IMG/VR virus record: IMGVR_UViG_3300025655_000231
Coordinates: 1-27,344 of that record
DNA length: 27,344 bases
Direction: 5' to 3' (one strand)
Source: a virus
Both the position numbers and the translations under genes were made by a program. Under the pieces are notes generated by a model. That model worked only from the letters and a program-made list of their open reading frames with translations. It was not told the DNA's origin and did not search any database. Shown piece by piece: positions 3,326 to 12,902 of this stretch (positions within the stretch are counted from its first letter, which is position 1; each line of letters begins with the position of its first letter).

Positions 3326-5185
3326 CTAAACTACTTCGCAAGCACCGCCAGCACAAGCAAGTTCGCCTGATAAATCAGTGTTGTCCTCTGCTTCGTAAAC
3401 ATTATTTAGATCAACTTTAGTCAAGGACTGAAGCATAACCTCATAAGTTTCCTTGGAGCAATCCTCAAATGGTGCTTGTTGGTAATTACCGCCAGCATAA
3501 GGTAAAACTGAAAGACCATTGTAAACATCGCGGTTTTCCCACATCCACTCTCCAACATCTGCCCACTCATGCTCACGGATGCTTACGGTAGCGGAAACAT
3601 TATGAGTGTTTTGACCTTTTCTATGACCTTTCCTAACCCACTCGTTTGAGACCTTTGCCACTCGCTTGAGCATGGACATGGCTGATTCTGTTCGGTAAAT
3701 TGCTCCTTCTGGAGCCTTTTGTGGAATAGAGATAACAGCAGTGTCGTGGGGTCGAAAGTATTCATCTTCAATCAATTCTGGGTGTGCCAACTGTAAGTAG
3801 TTGTAAATTGCTTCATTCTTACCGACACGAATGCGACGAATGTAGTAATCATTATGCCAAGCATGAATACCAGAGGAAGTACCTAGTGTTAGGGAGGTAG
3901 TACCTGCTGGTTTTACACAAGTAGTTCTTGCTGCCTCACGAATACCAATAAGTTTAGCAACTCGACTATTCTCCACTTTAACTGCCTTGGCTCCTGCTTC
4001 CATGTCTAGATCAAGAACAACACCAGAACCAATACCAGTCATTGAGACACCGATTAAAGCATCCTTTTCAGTGTTTCGCCTCCATACATCACGGAGATAG
4101 TGAAAGTCCGTGTAACCGGCTTGTAGTGTCCCTAGAAAGGCTGCTGCCTTAACACGGGCTTCGTACTCTTCCTGACTGTCTAAATCTGAAGCATTTACCT
4201 CAGTTAGATTGCAAAACTGGTAAGGACGAAGGGCAATCTCACAACAAGGGTTGGTTCCCCAATCCTTATCATTTGATAGGTAGATGCCGGGTTCGCCTGA
4301 ACCTGATTTCTTGATACGATCCCAAAGAGACATAAAGTATTCTTTATCAACTTTGTGTCGTAGAATTACTGCGGAGTTATTAGCTCGACCTCGCTGTGGG
4401 TTTGCTTCCCACCAAGATCCTGATTTTGCTGCAATCATTTCATCATCATCTGCTGAGAAGAGCGAGATAAGAGCGGCTCTGCGAATACCACCAGCCAAAA
4501 CAGCATCAGCAATATGACAAACCATGTCGTGAACTTCGATTGGCTCAAGCTTATCGCCATCTACCTTCTCTGCTAAAATACCCTCAACCTTTACCAAACA
4601 CTCACGAAGGGGCTGTGGTCCTGGGGCTTTACCACCTGAAGTTACAAGACGGGCTCCCTTTGGACGAATGTCGCTGAAATCAAAACGAAGTTTTGATGTT
4701 CCCTTAAAGTAAGAGTAAACAAGAGCCTTTACAGCATCAGCCCAACCTTCAATAGAATCTGAGATTAAGAAGCGACGGGTTCGCTTTGAGTTTGGTTTAC
4801 GAATTTCTGGTAGCTTTTCAACATGGTGAGATTGAACTGAAAAGCCAACACCAGTTCCACCTAATAGGAGGAACATACATTCTGCGAAAGCATCAGGGTG
4901 ATCTATCGGCATATAAGCACAATTATATACACGGTTTGGGGCAACTTCAATTGGCTTGCCTGCAAATTGCATTGACCTCATTGAAGGTAGAATCTTTTTA
5001 GTTATGACATAGTTGTCATAGACTTTAGTAATTTCTTCTTTTAAGTCTGGATACTTCTTAATATGCATATCCCTATTGCGAATACAAAGTTCTACCCAGC
5101 TTTCCCTTCTTTGCTTTTCAGGAATATACTTTGCATACTTCATGTGTACTGTAATGTCTGATAAAATTTCTGATGCTATCTGCAT
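3326..5185 (-). CDS. nrdJ: Adenosylcobalamin-dependent ribonucleotide reductase (class II, monomeric)
   Basis: The 619-residue enzyme reduces ribonucleotides to deoxyribonucleotides for phage DNA synthesis, using a B12-derived radical, so it works without oxygen or a second subunit. The family signatures are in order: NRVYNCAYMP (C89, one of the redox pair), the LLGGTGVGFSV segment, the thiyl-radical region NPCCE (C314 and E316), FCNLTEV (C325, the second redox cysteine) and a C-terminal C611-x4-C616 pair that regenerates the active site. It resembles Lactobacillus RTPR (739 aa) but is about 120 residues shorter. The residue after the thiyl cysteine is cysteine, where the model enzyme has glycine. 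The ATG overlaps the helicase stop (TAATG) and follows AAGGAGAAC, so translation is coupled. Confidence 0.93.
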   Translation of the reverse strand: MQIASEILSDITVHMKYAKYIPEKQRRESWVELCIRNRDMHIKKYPDLKEEITKVYDNYVITKKILPSMRSMQFAGKPIEVAPNRVYNCAYMPIDHPDAFAECMFLLLGGTGVGFSVQSHHVEKLPEIRKPNSKRTRRFLISDSIEGWADAVKALVYSYFKGTSKLRFDFSDIRPKGARLVTSGGKAPGPQPLRECLVKVEGILAEKVDGDKLEPIEVHDMVCHIADAVLAGGIRRAALISLFSADDDEMIAAKSGSWWEANPQRGRANNSAVILRHKVDKEYFMSLWDRIKKSGSGEPGIYLSNDKDWGTNPCCEIALRPYQFCNLTEVNASDLDSQEEYEARVKAAAFLGTLQAGYTDFHYLRDVWRRNTEKDALIGVSMTGIGSGVVLDLDMEAGAKAVKVENSRVAKLIGIREAARTTCVKPAGTTSLTLGTSSGIHAWHNDYYIRRIRVGKNEAIYNYLQLAHPELIEDEYFRPHDTAVISIPQKAPEGAIYRTESAMSMLKRVAKVSNEWVRKGHRKGQNTHNVSATVSIREHEWADVGEWMWENRDVYNGLSVLPYAGGNYQQAPFEDCSKETYEVMLQSLTKVDLNNVYEAEDNTDLSGELACAGGACEVV

Positions 5186-6546
5186 TAATTGTTCTCCTTT
5201 TTAAATTTTTTGTAAATGTCTGCTAATCTCTGCTTTTGATTTTTTGCGGCATCCTTGTTAATCTCTTGAATGGAACTACCATCCGGCTCTAAGACTTCCA
5301 ACAAAACATTGGAAGTGTCCATCTTCATTGGGTAGACTAGTCCGTCTGGTCCATTTCTATTTTTAGCTACAAACATTCTCGCCGCATTGACATTCTTGTC
5401 TTCAATAGTCCGAGATAGTGTAAATATGAAGTCCGCAACAAAACATTTATTGAAAGCTTCAGAAATACTCTCCATTGTGATAACTTCAGCATTCAACCCT
5501 CCACGATTTGTCTGTGAAGCGGTCCAAATAGGGCATTGAAACTCTTGTGACAATCCCCTTAAATTTTCGTAAATTGATTCAAGTTCAATTCTTTTTTCTT
5601 TGTAGTTGCCTGTTGGCTTCAACAAATCAGCATAATCTACGATAATCATTCCAACATCAATTCCACGATTCTGTAACTTTGATAGATGGTTTCGTAGAGT
5701 TGTAACTGATGCTGATTTAGTTGGATACTCTTTAACAATTACATTGCCCTTTACTTCTTTGACCTCATCATAGATTTCTTCCTTACGATGGTAAAGATCT
5801 TTTAGATGAATGCCGGTCATACACGAGTCATAACGAGAAGCTACAACTGTGTCTGCTAGCTCTAGTGTAAAGTGAACTACTGTCTTACCGTTGATAAGTC
5901 CCTGAGTTCCCAAGTGAACCAAAGCCATTGATTTACCTGCTCCTGTTGGAGCAATAACAACACCAAGCTCTCCTGCTCCCAAGCCACCTTTGCTAATCTT
6001 ATCAATAAGGTCCCAGCCTGTTGTAACTGGACTTCTTTGTTTAAGAACAAATCGTTTCTCAAAATCTAGCTTGTAATCGTAGCCATAGGAGTTGTCCGAG
6101 CCAAGCTTTAGAGCTTCGTTGATGAGAACTGAGATCTCGTCAAATGAAGCTTTCTGTAACAAGTTGGCTGATTTCATTAGAGCTTCTTTGAGCTTCTGCT
6201 TGCGGCAAAAGTCCAAAGAAGTGTGTTTAACATAATCCTCATCCTCAACGGATGGATTAGCATGAATTCTAGCAAAAAAGTCTCTAACTTGTTTGGTTAG
6301 GACTTGGTTGCTTTCATCCAGTTCTGTTCTTAGAATCGTTGCGATAGCCTGTGAAGATGGATGAGTTTGGTACTTTTCTTTGTAATCAAACAGTTTCTCA
6401 ACGAACTGTTGTAGGTATTTTTGTTCCAAAAATTCAACCTTAAAAACCTCACCGACCTGATCGCAAAAGGCTCTATCCTCAAACATAATCTGGACTAGGT
6501 TTTCCTGAAAGTGTTTTCCAAATTTTGAAAAATCTTTATTTAGCAT
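5185..6546 (-). CDS. Replicative DNA helicase, DnaB/T4 gp41 type
   Basis: This 453-residue protein is a RecA-fold hexameric helicase that should unwind DNA at the phage fork. The N-terminal 160 residues are helical, as in gp41/DnaB. The core begins with TTGWDLIDKISKGGLGAGEL, then Walker A APTGAGKS (about 199-206), HFTLELAD, Walker B MIIVDYADLL and ASQTNRGG (sensor/H3 region). T4 gp41 is of similar size (475 aa). A longer frame starts at TTG 6552, but ATG 6546 is preferred because AAGGA lies six bases before it. It overlaps the end of the 5' nuclease gene by 11 bases and the start of nrdJ by one base, so the three form one operon. No primase gene is seen in the window. Confidence 0.9.
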   Translation of the reverse strand: MLNKDFSKFGKHFQENLVQIMFEDRAFCDQVGEVFKVEFLEQKYLQQFVEKLFDYKEKYQTHPSSQAIATILRTELDESNQVLTKQVRDFFARIHANPSVEDEDYVKHTSLDFCRKQKLKEALMKSANLLQKASFDEISVLINEALKLGSDNSYGYDYKLDFEKRFVLKQRSPVTTGWDLIDKISKGGLGAGELGVVIAPTGAGKSMALVHLGTQGLINGKTVVHFTLELADTVVASRYDSCMTGIHLKDLYHRKEEIYDEVKEVKGNVIVKEYPTKSASVTTLRNHLSKLQNRGIDVGMIIVDYADLLKPTGNYKEKRIELESIYENLRGLSQEFQCPIWTASQTNRGGLNAEVITMESISEAFNKCFVADFIFTLSRTIEDKNVNAARMFVAKNRNGPDGLVYPMKMDTSNVLLEVLEPDGSSIQEINKDAAKNQKQRLADIYKKFKKENN

Positions 6547-7483
6547 TAGCAATCCTTATGCGGTTCATGGATGTATAGAGATCGTCCCAATTTAATTCAG
6601 CAAAGCCATCCTTCATCATCATCTTGATAAACTCTGTTCTTGCGAACTCTAATGGGTAGTTCTCTACCGACTCTTTGATAACTCTACTATTCTGTGGTGA
6701 TAAGTTAATCGTTGATAGGTTCATCACTTGATAGTTCTCTTCAATGAGAGACTGACTCTCAGTTATCTTATCCCAGAATCGGTCCTCCACTATAGCAGAG
6801 TCAAACACATCTTTCAAGAGGCAATCTTCTTGCTCAAGCAAAAAGGGCATTCTTTTCGCCACAGTCTTAAGACCTACACCTTTTACACCGGGTAGGTTAT
6901 CACTCTTATCTCCAACAATAGCTCTCGCAACTGCGAAGTTTGATGGGTGAATCTTGTACTCTTCAATAATGTTATTCTTGTTTAAAATCTGTTTTTGTGT
7001 TGGACGATAAAGAACTGTAGAGTCGTCTAGGAGTTGGAAGTAGTCTTTATCACTTGAGACAATAACTTTTTCCTTGCCCTTAAAACGAGCTACCAAAGCT
7101 CCAATAATGTCGTCCGCTTCTGAGTAATCAATGTTAATCTGGCAAACTGGTAGCTGGTTGAAGTATTCAGCCAAGCGAATCATCTGCCAAATTTTATTTT
7201 GGGCTTCTTGTTGTTCTGTTAGGTTCTTAACAGCCCTGTTTAATCTGATAGGCTTTCGCCCTTCCTTGTAGCCTTTGTTAATCTTTCGTCGCTTTGATGA
7301 TCCCTCACGACCATCCCAGCAAATGTAAACTTGTGTGGGTTTGATTTCTCTACATAATTTTTGTAGAATCTTTAGTGATCCCTTGATTCCTCCAATCGGC
7401 TGACCGTTAGAAGATAGTGAAGGATCCACAATGTAAGCTCTGTAGTACATGTTTAACATGTCTACGATCATAATTCGTTCCAT
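6536..7483 (-). CDS. rnh: 5'-3' exonuclease / RNase H, FEN family (T4 rnh-like)
   Basis: The 315-residue protein should remove RNA primers and 5' flaps during lagging-strand synthesis. It carries the FEN-family acidic metal ligands: D in IMIVDMLNMYYRAY near the N-terminus, CWDGREGSSKR with the basic arch helices after it, SEADDIIGAL, SSDKDYFQL, and GDKSDNLPGVKGVG, the last being the helix-3-turn-helix DNA-binding loop. T4 RNase H is about 305 aa. The frame can be extended to an ATG at 7507, but that lies in the loop of a strong hairpin; ATG 7483 has AGGGG seven bases upstream and gives MERIMIVD. The AGGGG is itself the 3' arm of the hairpin at 7491-7520, suggesting controlled translation. Confidence 0.9.
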   Translation of the reverse strand: MERIMIVDMLNMYYRAYIVDPSLSSNGQPIGGIKGSLKILQKLCREIKPTQVYICWDGREGSSKRRKINKGYKEGRKPIRLNRAVKNLTEQQEAQNKIWQMIRLAEYFNQLPVCQINIDYSEADDIIGALVARFKGKEKVIVSSDKDYFQLLDDSTVLYRPTQKQILNKNNIIEEYKIHPSNFAVARAIVGDKSDNLPGVKGVGLKTVAKRMPFLLEQEDCLLKDVFDSAIVEDRFWDKITESQSLIEENYQVMNLSTINLSPQNSRVIKESVENYPLEFARTEFIKMMMKDGFAELNWDDLYTSMNRIRIANAK

Positions 7484-7490
7484 AAAATAA

Positions 7491-7520
7491 CCCCTGGTAG
7501 AGATCACATTCTACCAGGGG
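7491..7520 (-). terminator. 11-bp stem-loop with U-rich tail, masking the rnh ribosome binding site
   Basis: CCCCTGGTAGA (7491-7501) pairs perfectly with TCTACCAGGGG (7510-7520) around an 8-base loop. On the minus strand the stem is followed by TTATTTTAT, so it fits a rho-independent terminator for the recA/43-aa transcript. Its 3' arm contains AGGGG, the ribosome binding site for rnh, so readthrough RNA would hide that site. Confidence 0.75.
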
Positions 7521-7543: not shown

Positions 7544-7675
7544 CTACCTTCCTTGACCTCTATAGGGTTTCTTGTAGCCCTTTACTCGCTTGTTATGAAA
7601 CTTTTTAGTAAAGGTTCCGTTGCCTTGTCGTGTTACCTTTTTATTTGACTTATGTTCTTTCTTTTTTTGATTCAC
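7544..7675 (-). CDS. Small basic protein, 43 aa, GTG start
   Basis: This frame begins with a GTG that overlaps the recA stop codon (GTGA), preceded by AAGGAGAATGATAA, a strong ribosome binding site inside the end of recA. The product starts MNQKKKEHKSNKKVTRQ and ends YKKPYRGQGR, with 12 lysines, 4 arginines and only one acidic residue. The coupled start, good spacing and position between recA and its terminator support real expression. No family is recognised. The composition suggests an RNA- or DNA-binding peptide, possibly a recombination or replication accessory, but this is inference from charge and neighbours only. Confidence 0.65.
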   Translation of the reverse strand: MNQKKKEHKSNKKVTRQGNGTFTKKFHNKRVKGYKKPYRGQGR

Positions 7676-8784
7676 TTATCATTCTCCTTATCTTCGTAAA
7701 AATCAGTTGAATCGCCTATCCTTTTATCAAACTTCATGACGACTTCTTCTTCTAGTAACTCTACTACTCTATCATGAAACTTTTGTTCTTCAAGTTTTTC
7801 AAGCCACTGCTTTGATTGAAACTTATCGTGTGTTCCATCTTCATAGTGTAAGGTAAACCAAGCTCCAGCATTAGTTAGTTTTTCTGAAGACTTAATTGCT
7901 TCAAACCAGCTTTCCTTATCCATAATCTTGACTTCATCGCCAGCCCATAGAATCTTAAAAGCACACTGACGACCTTGAGTTCCAAAGCGAGACTTCTCAA
8001 TCTTAGCTTTTACTTCTGTACCAATTCTAAATCCCTTATCATCAAAGATAAAAGATGACTTTCCCTTACGAGCAGTTAGCCAAATCCTTAAAGAGTAGGA
8101 GTAAGCTAGGGCTTTACCACCGGGAGTAAAGTAAGGTGTAGTAAGGGCTTCTGCTGGTGTACGAGTAATGTTTGTCTTTAGCTGATTTAGAATCAATAGA
8201 GTTGACTTTGTGTTAGCAATAGGCTGAATCAACTTCGACATTCCCTTTGATAGAATACGAGGCTTTACAGCCATTGTTGATAATGGGTTAAAGTCAGACT
8301 CAATGTCTGAGACTGATGGTGTTAGAGCCATAGAATCCCAAATGAATAGCATTTGACTATCATTGTTCGCAAGTAGACTCTCAATTGTCTCTAAGACAAA
8401 CTCTACTGAACTAGCTTGAACATAAAGCAATTTCTCAATATCGCAGCCAGCATTAGCTAAAAACTCTGGATCAATAGAGTTCTCTGAATCAAAGTAGATT
8501 ACATCAATGCCCATTCGTTGAGCATTACCGGCTACTTGTGCCGCCATGTAAGATTTACCAGTTGCTTCCAAGCCAGCAATCTCACTTACCTTGCCTACAG
8601 GAATACCACCCCAATCTCCTCGTTTGATAATCCCGTCAAGCCATTTACAGCCAGTTGGAATAAACTGGTTTACTTCTGTTGGATTATCATCAGATAGAGA
8701 AAAGGCAACATCCATTCCTGCTTTCTTATTAATTAATTTTTTCATGTCGGCTATGTTTAACCGACCAGTTGCTGCTTTTGCCAT
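7672..8784 (-). CDS. uvsX: RecA/UvsX-type strand-exchange recombinase
   Basis: The 370-residue protein should form filaments on ssDNA and drive homologous pairing, used by T4-like phages for recombination-dependent replication. The ATPase core has Walker A GLEATGKS (71-78), YFDSENSID, Walker B LFIWDSMALT, and LLILNQLKTN with the loop L2 region TPYFTPGGKALAYS after it. Length is close to T4 UvsX (391 aa) and bacterial RecA (about 350 aa). The C-terminal end is acidic (STDFYEDKENDK), as in many recombinases. The ATG at 8784 follows TATGGAGAAAAA. The next gene upstream encodes the ssDNA-binding partner. Whether it is closer to UvsX or bacterial RecA cannot be settled without a tree. Confidence 0.92.
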   Translation of the reverse strand: MAKAATGRLNIADMKKLINKKAGMDVAFSLSDDNPTEVNQFIPTGCKWLDGIIKRGDWGGIPVGKVSEIAGLEATGKSYMAAQVAGNAQRMGIDVIYFDSENSIDPEFLANAGCDIEKLLYVQASSVEFVLETIESLLANNDSQMLFIWDSMALTPSVSDIESDFNPLSTMAVKPRILSKGMSKLIQPIANTKSTLLILNQLKTNITRTPAEALTTPYFTPGGKALAYSYSLRIWLTARKGKSSFIFDDKGFRIGTEVKAKIEKSRFGTQGRQCAFKILWAGDEVKIMDKESWFEAIKSSEKLTNAGAWFTLHYEDGTHDKFQSKQWLEKLEEQKFHDRVVELLEEEVVMKFDKRIGDSTDFYEDKENDK

Positions 8785-8834: not shown

Positions 8835-9578
8835 TTAACTAGCGAGTAGATCCTTGAAGGCATCATCTACGGATGAGCCACTAGACTTGTCGCTAACAAC
8901 AACTCCATCAGAATCATCTCCATCTTCACCGAGTAGGAACTTATCTAGGATAGCAGAAACATCATCCTTTGACTTAACCTCAAAGAGCTTGTCAAAATCT
9001 ACTTCATTGTCGAGTAGTTCACTCATCTGATCGGCATCTGGAACTAGAGCAGATGTCTTACGGCGAGCAGTAATATTGGTTGATGGGAACATCGCACCTG
9101 GAGCCTTACCATAAGTTAGAACCAAGTCAGTACCATTGTGAGCATCAGTAATATCACCGTAATCAGGATTTAGTACTAGTTGTAGCAAGTTCTCATAAAC
9201 AGTCTTGCTGTAACCCCAAACCTTAACACCTTCAGCCTCTTCACCACGAACCAAAACTGGTGAAAAGAATCGGCTCTTTGCTACAAGCTTACGAGCTAGT
9301 TGTCGTGACTCATCATCACCATCATTATAAAGCTTTGAAACAAAGTCGCAAACCGGACAATCATCGCCAAAGTTCTTCTTTGGACATAGGAATCCAGCTT
9401 TCTCACCTACATTGTAGTGAAAGTGAAAGTGTTTAAAGGGATCGCCATCTGGTGATGGTAGAATACGAATAACATTCTCGCCTTCAGATGGCTTCCAAAA
9501 TTTAGCTCCACCACTATTACCGCCCTTGTTGTGTAGGTCGGCTAGCTTTTGTCGCATTTTCTTAAGATCAATACCCAT
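8835..9578 (-). CDS. Single-stranded DNA-binding protein, T4 gp32-like
   Basis: The 247-residue protein should coat ssDNA at the fork and recruit replication and recombination proteins. It keeps the three-part gp32 layout: a basic N-terminal segment for cooperativity (LKKMRQKLADLHNKGG), an OB-type core with a zinc site, and an acidic C-terminal tail (EDGDDSDG to the end) for partner binding. The zinc ligands fit H52-x12-C65-x8-C74-x2-C77, against H-x12-C-x9-C-x2-C in T4 gp32. It is shorter than T4 gp32 (301 aa). The ATG has CGGAGGAATAA upstream, one of the best ribosome binding sites here, as expected for an abundant protein. A promoter candidate lies at 9762-9790. Confidence 0.9.
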   Translation of the reverse strand: MGIDLKKMRQKLADLHNKGGNSGGAKFWKPSEGENVIRILPSPDGDPFKHFHFHYNVGEKAGFLCPKKNFGDDCPVCDFVSKLYNDGDDESRQLARKLVAKSRFFSPVLVRGEEAEGVKVWGYSKTVYENLLQLVLNPDYGDITDAHNGTDLVLTYGKAPGAMFPSTNITARRKTSALVPDADQMSELLDNEVDFDKLFEVKSKDDVSAILDKFLLGEDGDDSDGVVVSDKSSGSSVDDAFKDLLAS

Positions 9579-10418
9579 TTATTCCTCCGTTTTATTTTGG
9601 GTTGTTTGAACAACATTTGTAAATGCTTCTACATAAACATGATTATCAGACCATTCTGAATCAATAATTTTGAAAGAAGCTTGTTCATTATTTTCTTGAA
9701 TTTGATTATTTATTTTTTCGACGACACCGGGTGTCTCCAGTGCCTTCTTGCTCATAACGAAATAGTAACACTTTTCTCGGATGCTGTCAAGAGGAAAGTG
9801 TAACATCTCTTCTCCATTCTCAGGGTTTACCATGCCAAAGCTAGAGATTCTGTTGACTTCCGATGGCTCTTCTACATTTGAGAATAAGCCTTCTGTGTTT
9901 TTAATGTAATTGGTCATGTGAAACATTCCTGCTATTGTACTGGCAACATAGTCTTTTTTCTGTAAGAAGTTGACTTCTGCCCCTTTTAGAACCTCTAAGG
10001 CATCATAAAGATAAATTTTACTAAACACTCCTGAGCGAGATAACTCTTGTAGTATACCACAAGTCATTCGCTCTCTTAACTTTTGCTTGTTAGATAGAAA
10101 GTTCTTTTCTGGTCTAACATAGTGGATAGTAATTTTTTTATCTTTGATCCTCTCTAAGATTCTAAGTGTTGCTCCGGTAGTCTTACCACCTCCGAACAAG
10201 AACACATGAACAACATTATGCCCCACTTTCTTACTAATGTCAAGACTTGTTTTCTCTTCGTAATCCTTGATTGTTTCTTGACTATCAATTAAAATTTGCT
10301 CGACATTATTTAATTGTTCTTTAAAGCTGGTGTCAATCACCATGACATCATAAGCTTCATGCTGGGCTAACTCAGTGGCAATCTGACTACCACCTGTTCC
10401 GATTCCGATTACCTGCAT
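9579..10418 (-). CDS. Divergent tubulin/FtsZ-like GTPase
   Basis: The 279-residue protein has the pattern of a tubulin/FtsZ nucleotide-binding domain. Residues 2-13 (QVIGIGTGGSQI) match the first beta strand and T1 glycine loop; YDVMVIDTSFKEQL matches the FtsZ '.F.A.NTD...L' strand; HVFLFGGGKTTGATLRILERI (71-91) matches the tubulin signature GGGTGTG with two substitutions. Residues 165-200 resemble the central helix region, with NVEEPSEV (181-188) at the T7 position where FtsZ has NVDFADV. CYYFVMSKKALETP and VYVEAFTNV fit C-terminal strands. It is shorter than FtsZ and phage PhuZ. It overlaps the polymerase end by 10 bases and abuts the SSB gene. A role in DNA positioning or a filament is inference; no homolog could be checked. 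Confidence 0.6.
   Translation of the reverse strand: MQVIGIGTGGSQIATELAQHEAYDVMVIDTSFKEQLNNVEQILIDSQETIKDYEEKTSLDISKKVGHNVVHVFLFGGGKTTGATLRILERIKDKKITIHYVRPEKNFLSNKQKLRERMTCGILQELSRSGVFSKIYLYDALEVLKGAEVNFLQKKDYVASTIAGMFHMTNYIKNTEGLFSNVEEPSEVNRISSFGMVNPENGEEMLHFPLDSIREKCYYFVMSKKALETPGVVEKINNQIQENNEQASFKIIDSEWSDNHVYVEAFTNVVQTTQNKTEE
9762..9790 (-). promoter_or_regulatory. Sigma-70-like promoter inside the tubulin-like gene, upstream of SSB
   Basis: On the minus strand TTGACA (9790-9785), 17 bp, TACTAT (9767-9762). It points at the SSB gene, whose ATG is about 180 bp downstream. The -35 is perfect and the -10 matches four of six consensus positions; it could provide extra SSB transcript. Confidence 0.4.
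10215..10243 (-). promoter_or_regulatory. Second sigma-70-like promoter inside the tubulin-like gene
   Basis: On the minus strand TTGACA (10243-10238), 17 bp, CATAAT (10220-10215). It lies in the coding region and points toward SSB. Spacing and boxes are good, but coding constraint or chance cannot be excluded. Confidence 0.35.
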
Positions 10419-11599
10419 AATTCTTTCATTTCTCCGTAGTTCACACCAGCAGCGATGTTAACCTTAAACTCTCCAAGACTAGTGTTGCCGTAAGTCTCTA
10501 CAAGGTCTTTCAAAAGGTCTCTGTCTTCCTCATTATAATCTATTAAAACCGAATCATGAATCACTGCTGTAATGTAGCTTTTCCTGTTGTTTAGTAGCTT
10601 ATCTAACTTGATTGCTTGAGTTAAGCACACATCTGAAGCTGTGCTCTGAATTAGGTAGTTTAGAGCATGAAAATCATCGCTAGGAATCTTACGATCAAAA
10701 GGTGTAGTGATGATACCATCCTTGTAGTAGGTTGACAAAATCTTATCTTTATTGTAAAATCTAGACATTAGGTGATCTTCAGAGTTGGGATTGTAGAGCC
10801 AAGCAAAAGCCCGTTTCTTCGCTTCTGCTCGGGTTCCTAGCCCTCTAAAAACATTCTTGATGTTCCACTCGTGGATGTCTTCTTTCGGCTGTTCTACACC
10901 GTTTAGAGCCTGTAGAACACGAAGTTCATTCGCATTGAAGTCTAGCTCTAAGAACCAGTGGTTATGTGGCTTCAAAATCTGACGGAATCTCTTATCAAAA
11001 GCCAAGATTGGAAAGCTATTTTTCTGAGTAGAGAGGCGACCCGTCTTGGACTTAAAGATGTTGTAGCTGATTTTGTCGCTGCTGTTTAAGAACTTTTGAA
11101 CGGCAACAAAGTCAGTCTTCTTCATAAATCGCTGATTCAGCTTGCTTTTATCAATGATTAGCTTTTGACCAGAGATCTTGGTTAGAAGCAAGTTAACTTC
11201 TTTTAAGAAAGAATAGTTAGCAGGCTTACTAAAGTTTTCAAACACAAACTTTGTAATCTCAGTCTTGTCCTCATAGAAGTCTGTGAGGAACTTGTCTGGA
11301 ACTAGGTCATAGAAGCAGTGGTCGTCTAAGCTGACCTTAGCCTTACCCAATGACTTGATAAACGACTTCATTCGCTTGGTGGAGTACTCCCACCTAGAGT
11401 GGAGGTGGTCGGGTAGTGGGACATCATCTATGTCATCCACCCCGGCATAGAGTTTAGCATAATCTACACTCTCAGACATAAAGTTAGGAGAGCTATCCCA
11501 AGTCTGGGTAAAGCCATGTCCAACATCTTCTTTGTAGATTTTGCCGTCACTATAGTAGCCGACACACTCAATCTTGTTATCAAGAATCTGAAAAATCAT
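10409..11599 (-). CDS. Family A DNA polymerase, polymerase domain only
   Basis: The 396-residue protein should be the replicative polymerase. The motifs of DNA polymerase I are present: TGRLST (187-191), motif A LELDFNANELRV with catalytic D220 and E225, motif B R257-x3-K261-x3-F265-x3-Y269 on the O helix, the NYLIQSTASD helix (314-323), and motif C VIHDS with catalytic D349. Residue F265 is the position of E. coli F762. The usual HDE of motif C reads HDS. The N-terminal 180 residues do not show the exonuclease motifs, and the length allows no such domain; T4 itself uses a family B enzyme. The start overlaps the upstream gene by 20 bases, and a promoter at 11653-11681 can supply its own transcript. 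Confidence 0.9.
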   Translation of the reverse strand: MIFQILDNKIECVGYYSDGKIYKEDVGHGFTQTWDSSPNFMSESVDYAKLYAGVDDIDDVPLPDHLHSRWEYSTKRMKSFIKSLGKAKVSLDDHCFYDLVPDKFLTDFYEDKTEITKFVFENFSKPANYSFLKEVNLLLTKISGQKLIIDKSKLNQRFMKKTDFVAVQKFLNSSDKISYNIFKSKTGRLSTQKNSFPILAFDKRFRQILKPHNHWFLELDFNANELRVLQALNGVEQPKEDIHEWNIKNVFRGLGTRAEAKKRAFAWLYNPNSEDHLMSRFYNKDKILSTYYKDGIITTPFDRKIPSDDFHALNYLIQSTASDVCLTQAIKLDKLLNNRKSYITAVIHDSVLIDYNEEDRDLLKDLVETYGNTSLGEFKVNIAAGVNYGEMKELCR

Positions 11600-12902
11600 T
11601 TAAATATCTGTTGTCCTCACCAGTCCTCTTGTCGAACTGATCTTGTGGGGACATCATAACACCTTCGTCAAATCTTGTCAAGTTGTTTTCGTTGAGGGTA
11701 ACGTCTCTATAGGCAGTCGTTCCCAAGTTGTATTGAATGTAATCAAGAGCTTTAGATAGAGCTTTTTGATTATTTTTACTTCGAAGGCTTTTGTAAATTG
11801 TTAAAGCATTTTTGATATGAAAGCCTCTTCTCTTTTGAGAAACAGTCAAACCGGACTCAGCCAATCTAAAATCATAATATAAGCCTATAGTAGTTTCTGT
11901 CTGGTTATAGTAAGCTGGTGTAGCGATACTTGTCTCTCTTAACTTTGGAAGTTCTCTATCTTTGTATGTATAAAAAGCATTAATACAGTTTGATCTAGCA
12001 GTTCTATTTTCTTTATATCGAGGATAAGCTTGTACAAATGTAGTATAAAATACAAATAATTCATTATAAAATTCTTCGAAGTATTTTGTAAGGTCTAGTC
12101 TTTCATAAAATGTTTCAAAAAATTCTTGTGTTGTTATAACTCTATTCTCATCAGTAATTTGCTCTTTAACAAAAGGTTCTGACTTTTTACTTTTAAAGTT
12201 TGATACTATTCTCCACGGTGAGTTTCTATCTATTCTAAATCCATATCTACCGCATAGTTCTTGAAAAACTTCAAAGTTATTATCATTTACAAATTCAAAA
12301 GCTAGAGAGTCGTCTCCATATTCTCCTTCGTAGATTTCTATAGCCATACCACTATTATTAACGGTAGTTCTATTTGACTCGTGAAAACCAACTCTAGTAA
12401 ATGGTTGCTTTGTATCTCTAATATATTGTAATAATAAAAGTATAAAAGAATTAAAATCTTTAACGTCTTCTGTTTCTAAAACATTTTCAAGTCTATCATT
12501 AAAAAAACTTTCATATAAAGATTGCTGATTGTCCTGATATTTTAATGTTGGGCTATTCCAGCCTTTAATTGGTTGTAAGGTTCTTTGAAAGAAATCTGAT
12601 TTGGTATCAATATAACCATCTAAATAAAGAGTCTCATAATGTAATCTCATTTTCTTAAATGCTTGTGAGACATAATTTAAACACAATACAGTGTTTTCAT
12701 CTGAATCTTTACTTACAATCTCTAAGAAAGATTCCTTTGGATAAACAACTCTTCCTAACTCATCAACCTTACCATATAAAGGTGTATCATACCAAAGATC
12801 GAACTGTCTGTCGGTCTGGTCATAAAGATAATCATACAAAACTCTACTATTATAAAGTTCTTTAGTTGTAGAATCATTATTAGCGCTTGGTATGTTAGTC
12901 AC
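11580..12902 (-). CDS. Unknown protein of the tail/baseplate gene block, 440 aa
   Basis: No family is recognised. The protein is rich in tyrosine, phenylalanine, asparagine and charged residues, with no signal peptide, membrane segment or enzymatic motif; a middle stretch (about 250-300) holds many aromatic and acidic residues, and the last 100 are mixed helical. It begins with GTG overlapping the stop of the preceding gene (TAGTG), and AAGGAG eight bases upstream is a strong ribosome binding site, so it is translationally coupled to the 916-residue virion gene. That makes a baseplate or other virion role the best guess. Its last 20 bases overlap the polymerase gene, which marks the junction between structural and replication modules. 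Confidence 0.6.
   Translation of the reverse strand: MTNIPSANNDSTTKELYNSRVLYDYLYDQTDRQFDLWYDTPLYGKVDELGRVVYPKESFLEIVSKDSDENTVLCLNYVSQAFKKMRLHYETLYLDGYIDTKSDFFQRTLQPIKGWNSPTLKYQDNQQSLYESFFNDRLENVLETEDVKDFNSFILLLLQYIRDTKQPFTRVGFHESNRTTVNNSGMAIEIYEGEYGDDSLAFEFVNDNNFEVFQELCGRYGFRIDRNSPWRIVSNFKSKKSEPFVKEQITDENRVITTQEFFETFYERLDLTKYFEEFYNELFVFYTTFVQAYPRYKENRTARSNCINAFYTYKDRELPKLRETSIATPAYYNQTETTIGLYYDFRLAESGLTVSQKRRGFHIKNALTIYKSLRSKNNQKALSKALDYIQYNLGTTAYRDVTLNENNLTRFDEGVMMSPQDQFDKRTGEDNRYLNDFSDS
11653..11681 (-). promoter_or_regulatory. Sigma-70-like promoter for the polymerase/replication operon
   Basis: On the minus strand TTGACA (11681-11676), 17 bp, TATGAT (11658-11653). It lies in the last 80 bp of the structural gene and about 50 bp before the polymerase ATG. 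This is where a separate early promoter would be expected, because the genes upstream are virion genes and those downstream are replication genes. Confidence 0.6.

Follow-up and report, generated by a model that had tools for sequence, protein, structure and literature searches.

Tubulin-like proteins encoded by phages have been described in two settings, as PhuZ in nucleus-forming jumbo phages and as TubZ in plasmid-like phages (PMC3678025, PMC4244570, PMC7824862). In the protofilaments of tubulin, FtsZ and phiKZ TubZ, the subunit interface is made by T7, the base of H8 and S9 (PMC3678025). Jumbo-phage tubulins are mentioned by Iyer et al. (2021, PMC7824862) as well as by Al-Shayeb et al. (2020, PMC7162821), and none of those in the passages covered lies in a T4-like replication operon. 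The literature that we covered likewise contained no tubulin homologue in such an operon; most subscription papers lay outside this coverage, and priority is therefore unproven. A reading of the locus described here from its sequence alone had claimed that known phage tubulins sit outside T4-type replication operons, and we found no published counterexample.

The window analyzed here is a 27,344-base IMG/VR virus record, which is probably a fragment. It encodes a 279-residue protein, a member of what we call family A, for which the sequence-only reading had proposed a divergent tubulin/FtsZ-like GTPase tied to replication. We find that the fold and the tie to replication are well supported, while the catalytic and filament-forming parts of the proposal are not.

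The Locus and Its Operon

The reading frame exists and is encoded on the minus strand, with an ATG start and a TAA stop at positions 9579–9581. As Table 1 shows, it sits, as had been claimed, between genes for a PolA-family DNA polymerase and a gp32-like single-strand DNA-binding protein (SSB). In the direction of transcription the order is a 440-aa protein, the polymerase, family A, SSB, UvsX/RecA, a 5'-3' exonuclease and a DnaB helicase. The polymerase and family A ORFs overlap by 10 nt, the Shine-Dalgarno sequence of the SSB gene (GGAGG) is located inside the 3' end of the family A ORF, and the SSB ATG directly follows the family A TAA. On the basis of these three features, translation of family A in the window is likely to be coupled with that of its operon neighbors.

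Several other features of the window deserve mention. The polymerase is only 396 aa long and its PolA-family match falls mainly in the C-terminal half; within the window we identified no gene for a separate proofreading exonuclease. The 440-aa protein (11580–12902) directly upstream overlaps the polymerase gene by 20 nt and has a counterpart in a second locus, L037, and it has no significant match in Pfam or PHROGs. A ribonucleotide reductase-like gene, recognized by reading only, lies near family A at 3326–5185.

Table 1. Positions of the features discussed. Coordinates are those of the window except for family B, a second phage tubulin, which is given on its own contig.
Feature	Position	Strand	Evidence or remark
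Family A tubulin/FtsZ-fold protein (predicted), 279 aa	9579..10418 (stop codon included)	-	AF2 model, Foldseek, VIA-align, 156 distinct homologues
T1 phosphate-loop equivalent GIGTGGSQ, residues 5-12	10383..10406	-	G5, G7, G10 near-invariant in 156 proteins
Degenerate tubulin signature (T4) GGGKTTG, residues 76-82	10173..10193	-	profile-aligned to FtsZ/family B GGGTGTG
Motif Q124-E-L-S-R128-S129-G-V-F132, end of helix 110-128	10023..10049	-	Q124, R128, S129 in 156/156
NVEEPSEV, residues 181-188, at T7 place	9855..9878	-	conserved in window clade only
PolA-family DNA polymerase, 396 aa, obligate upstream neighbor	10409..11599	-	PF00476 E 2.7e-14
gp32-like SSB, downstream neighbor	8835..9578	-	PF08804 E 2.5e-17, phrog_1192 E 1.5e-27
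UvsX/RecA recombinase	7672..8784	-	PF00154 E 1.5e-31, phrog_97 E 2.9e-49
5'-3' exonuclease	6536..7507	-	PF02739 E 2.4e-29
DnaB-like replicative helicase	5185..6552	-	phrog_19 E 3.1e-75
Family B tubulin, 364 aa	L139:1027-2121	-	signature GGGGGTGSA; invariant D249, D252 (TFDSKDLE) at T7 place

Distribution of Family A

An initial search of IMG/VR gave 16 loci with 68–100% identity over the matched parts, and iterated alignment searches then reached relatives at 62% and, finally, 30% identity. There are at least 568 confirmed relatives in IMG/VR. Conservation was read from 156 distinct full-length proteins, 19 of which form the clade of the window protein (≥60% identity) and 137 of which lie outside it.

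Searches elsewhere were negative. With tblastn, three different family A members gave zero matches to 50,697 phage records, phiKZ included, and genomes of bacteria and archaea, scanned once with a GGGK-type pattern that covers only part of the family, yielded zero relatives. Pfam, PHROGs and the PDB sequences contained no significant match, even to a 68-sequence profile. As far as searched, family A is exclusively viral, and its carriers are uncultured, mostly marine viruses of bacteria that belong to a T4-like lineage. One locus (L254:4667-5518) carries a family A gene with one in-frame stop, and both halves match the family; what appeared to be a double copy is thus one gene split by the stop, which reflects either an error in sequencing or a copy that has decayed.

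Linkage to Polymerase and SSB

The arrangement seen in the window is general. Among 100 distinct loci retrieved through the family A gene, the polymerase is the upstream neighbor in 86 of the 88 that could be tested (in 12 the position is off the contig end, and in the 2 exceptions none was recognized), and SSB is located downstream in 95 of 96 (4 are off the contig end, and 1 has RecA next). The association also holds when approached from the polymerase: a search seeded with eight aligned polymerase sequences, themselves taken from family A-carrying loci, places family A next to the polymerase in all of the best 80 matches, which were the ones kept. The position between polymerase and SSB is fixed across very divergent loci. 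The identity between the same loci is ∼30% for family A versus 42% for the polymerase, 52% for SSB and 67% for RecA. These data lend strong support to the earlier claim of a replication-tied role, and we consider it very probable that family A acts within phage replication or alongside it.

The association is the mark of a single lineage, since Flavobacterium phage immuto and Microcystis phage Mel-JY01, which are more distant and in culture, have related operons with other genes between polymerase and SSB. Contigs with family B and no family A also have a different gene before SSB; in 4 of the 7 such loci read (L229, L230, L232 and L233) this ORF resembles a DnaQ-type 3'-5' exonuclease with a VETTGL motif. 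The gp45 clamp model PF02916 had zero matches in family A contigs, as it did in the S-RIM2 cyanophage used as a control.

Predicted Tubulin/FtsZ Fold

At the sequence level the family is difficult to place. The best-scoring Pfam match of the protein is an NAD(P)-binding oxidoreductase family, PF03435 (E 3.9e-4, 21.2 bits against a cut-off of 25.1), Tubulin PF00091 is likewise below its cut-off (E 0.007), and hhalign of family A to four FtsZ sequences or to a single PhuZ is weak (E 0.1), with too few templates. Identification by sequence failed, and the fold was settled only by a model built from a diverse alignment. A model based on just 11 close relatives was of low quality (pLDDT 55), yet Foldseek already ranked FtsZ first for it. 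The AlphaFold model from 68 diverse relatives (m626602c14a78) has a pLDDT of 91.7 and a pTM of 0.90, and it contains the two-domain tubulin arrangement of a Rossmann-type nucleotide domain, the core helix H7 and a C-terminal α/β domain.

The structural comparison that the sequence-only reading had proposed was then run on this model. In Foldseek against the PDB the best match is FtsZ (E 3.3e-13, TM 0.71), and the 50 best matches are all FtsZ or CetZ. VIA-align 2 places TubZ first (4ei7_B, Z 24.1, rmsd 3.2, 273 residues aligned, 18% identity), followed by CetZ (3zid, Z 23.9) and FtsZ (Z 23); overall, the matches to these three proteins have Z values of 21–24 over 250–273 residues. The best matches in a viral structure library are annotated as 'FtsZ', 'cell division protein' and 'tubulin' and come from uncultured phages. 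A profile–profile comparison further aligns family A with family B, which carries a canonical GGGGGTGS, over 174 columns (E 3.4e-4).

The competing possibility, that an ordinary Rossmann protein of the dehydrogenase, TrkA_N or ThiF type had been misread as a tubulin, draws on Pfam hits to NAD(P)-binding families that cover residues 3–55 and stay below the cut-off. It is rejected at the level of the predicted fold, as the model matches tubulin/FtsZ over residues 1–277 and the 50 best matches in both PDB structure searches are all tubulin/FtsZ proteins; we regard it as having only the slightest chance of being correct. The high-confidence model thus bears out the claimed fold in both domains and over the whole length, and another Rossmann family, the outcome named beforehand as speaking against it, is not what the comparison returned. 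According to the model, family A almost certainly has the tubulin-superfamily fold, and it forms a large viral branch of the tubulin/FtsZ superfamily that had not been named before.

A Second Phage Tubulin

Family B was found with the Pfam tubulin model in a 166-kb contig (G001), and its 364-aa protein is encoded far from family A. By phmmer it matches CetZ (3zid, 1.7e-6) and FtsZ (4.5e-5), and TubZ was also matched in the PDB. Its 107 relatives (L141–L220 among them) reside on viral contigs of up to 281 kb, and a search of the 50,697 phage records gave zero matches. The proteins are ∼360 aa long with an acidic N-terminal extension, and the gene adjoins a sigma-like gene (weak match to a late sigma factor, phrog_234). 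By its sequence, family B looks like an intact, uncharacterized phage tubulin, and it deserves separate study.

The two families belong to the same superfamily, as the profile match indicates, and occur in overlapping sets of large T4-like phages. They differ in that GGGGGTGS and D249xxD252 are retained in family B, whose gene is located outside the replication operon. An α/β-like pairing of the two was considered and rejected as a general arrangement, since they co-occur only in some contigs: of 16 large contigs chosen for family B, 5 also carry family A, while family B is present in 1 of 16 contigs chosen for family A and in none of 10 chosen by polymerase, five of which are 147–204 kb.

Anatomy of the Nucleotide Site

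The four motifs quoted in the sequence-only reading are present in the protein (GIGTGG, residues 5–10; YDVMVIDT, 23–30; GGGKTTG, 76–82; NVEEPSEV, 181–188). The third and fourth are not chance occurrences, as G76-G77-G78-K79-T80-T81-G82, N181, E183, P185 and E187, together with N189 and R190, are invariant in the 19 proteins of the window clade. What these motifs represent is a separate matter. In the T1 loop, the position of FtsZ N24 is occupied by Q. The T4 segment departs from the signature [SAG]GGTG[SAT]G, reading GGGKTTG in 19/19 window-clade proteins, and outside this clade it is variable, with GGSG, GGAG or CG plus [IV]S (IS[GA]).

The NVEEPSEV segment had been read as a T7 loop with substituted aspartates. 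It is fixed in the window clade and not elsewhere, position 183 being mostly S/F/A/T in the other proteins, and given this lack of conservation in the wider family it cannot be read as an ancestral T7 loop that underwent conservative substitutions. DSSP assignment of the model shows a helix at 151–173 (H7) followed by a strand at 191–197 with no helix between them, so that H8 is missing. Family A accordingly has neither the T7 catalytic acids NxDxx[DE] nor helix H8.

The base pocket shows a different distribution. A weak, in-register profile alignment places residue 140 on FtsZ Asn165 (IPN) and residues 159–160 on Asn186-Asp187 at the start of H7. In FtsZ and tubulin, the positions aligned to 140 and 159 contact guanine. 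Outside the window clade, N140 and N159 are each found in 127/137 proteins, and Y, H or F occupies position 155 in most. Within the window clade, Asn occurs at 140 or 159 in 0/19 proteins, which mostly have A/V/T140 and A/S/I159. The window clade thus reverses the family pattern: the glycine-rich T4 and the acidic NxExPxE loop are fixed, and the guanine-contacting Asn residues are lost.

Judged from these residues, most of family A looks able to hold a guanine nucleotide without canonical hydrolysis, and in the window clade even base recognition may have been lost. The term GTPase finds no support in this anatomy, given the altered signature, the absence of T7 and H8 from the model and the lack of guanine-contacting Asn in the window clade. 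The same holds for filament formation, as T7 and H8, which make the catalytic longitudinal contact, are absent from the model. By its motifs, family A appears to be no tubulin/FtsZ GTPase of any named family.

Among the residues tabulated, only Q124, R128 and S129 are identical in 156/156 proteins, and the motif in which they occur has no FtsZ counterpart; we infer that these three are the likeliest to form a surface for a partner. Y23, H167, R190 and Y218/Y219 are nearly invariant in the family.

Proposed Role in Replication

The explanation that we favor, at about an even chance, is that family A is a tubulin-fold obligate partner of a PolA-type phage replisome that probably does not hydrolyze nucleotide. 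A more specific form, in which it is a fixed non-hydrolyzing subunit of the viral polymerase holoenzyme (a processivity factor, tether or factory scaffold), is put forward tentatively. A phage tubulin would have been captured by the polymerase operon and would then have lost its hydrolysis element. Made in step with the polymerase and SSB, the protein would be active at the fork or factory where phage DNA is replicated. It would serve there as a scaffold, an anchor or a subunit that confers processivity, in the form of a monomer or short oligomer. A treadmilling cycle driven by hydrolysis would not run, as the protein lacks the element with which one subunit completes the active site of its neighbor. 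The base pocket of most members (N140, Y/H155, N159) may hold GTP/GDP in a structural or regulatory capacity, and in the window clade even this binding may be gone. The invariant patch of Q124, R128 and S129, with Y23, H167, R190 and Y218/Y219, would dock a replisome protein, most likely the polymerase. Linkage and translational coupling suggest a role in replication, short of proof of polymerase contact; this contact, the absence of filament dynamics and the role of the GTP ligand are inferred, whereas the predicted fold, the linkage, the close packing of the genes and the loss of catalytic parts are shown. Two points count against the replisome reading. Family A diverges faster than its operon neighbors, unlike a tightly constrained core subunit, and non-canonical filaments built without the T7/H8 contacts are conceivable.

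Such filaments lead to the alternative that family A is a cytomotive or cytoskeletal tubulin like PhuZ or TubZ, with filaments that position the phage DNA or factory and an operon location that sets timing only. The fold itself, TubZ as the best structural match, the guanine pocket kept by most members and a T1 and T2 like those of phiKZ PhuZ (G.AG..I.e.F..Y ... IDTS in both) are all consistent with it, and PhuZ is described as centering replicating phage DNA (PMC4244570). The missing canonical longitudinal contact and the altered T4 argue in the other direction, as does the absence of a long C-terminal tail, there being about 10 residues past the last strand. Moreover, the linkage to polymerase and SSB is near-absolute, whereas phiKZ PhuZ is found among unrelated genes. 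We consider a filament role unlikely on balance.

The same incomplete subunit, which has a top face and lacks the catalytic bottom one, could poison the end of a protofilament. Family A might then inhibit host FtsZ, capping the Z-ring or joining its assembly so that the infected cell no longer divides. Phage proteins that halt host division are known, which provides a general precedent. Host-takeover genes, however, are usually scattered, variable and dispensable, whereas family A is syntenic in nearly all testable loci, and it is no closer to FtsZ than to TubZ or CetZ; this role appears improbable. We attach a similarly low likelihood to a nucleotide sensor, in which the tubulin pocket would bind GTP/dGTP and gate polymerase activity. 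The retention of the base pocket in most members with loss of catalysis, and the nearby ribonucleotide reductase-like gene, would fit such a sensor, but the window clade has dispensed with the guanine-contacting Asn residues and nevertheless keeps both the gene and its place.

If the replisome partner reading is correct, family A would be the first component of a replisome with a tubulin fold, and it would be widespread in a large lineage of uncultured, mostly marine phages. Tied to the polymerase across hundreds of uncultured viruses and having shed its catalytic parts, it makes the recruitment of a cytoskeletal fold into a replisome testable. The many natural sequences in which the base pocket is kept and catalysis is lost should be useful for dissecting tubulin mechanism, and the family points to an entire replication module of phages that has no representative in culture.

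Comparison with Known Tubulins

The known phage tubulins, PhuZ and TubZ, are filament-forming GTPases encoded outside replication operons, and family A contrasts with both. It resembles TubZ of Bacillus plasmids and phage c-st in fold, with the highest Z, and TubZ likewise serves an extrachromosomal element. Where the TubZRC system has an adjacent TubR, however, family A has polymerase and SSB as its neighbors in the testable loci and no neighboring TubR, and it lacks T7/H8, an unaltered signature and a long C-terminal tail. With PhuZ of phiKZ-like jumbo phages it shares a phage-encoded tubulin fold and similar T1 and T2; PhuZ differs in retaining its GTPase site and filaments (PMC3678025, PMC4244570), and in phiKZ its gene lies outside the replication operon. 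With FtsZ and CetZ the likeness extends over both domains of the fold, but identity is only 11–16%, and family A is without GGGTGTG, NxDxxD, H8 and the C-terminal linker and peptide.
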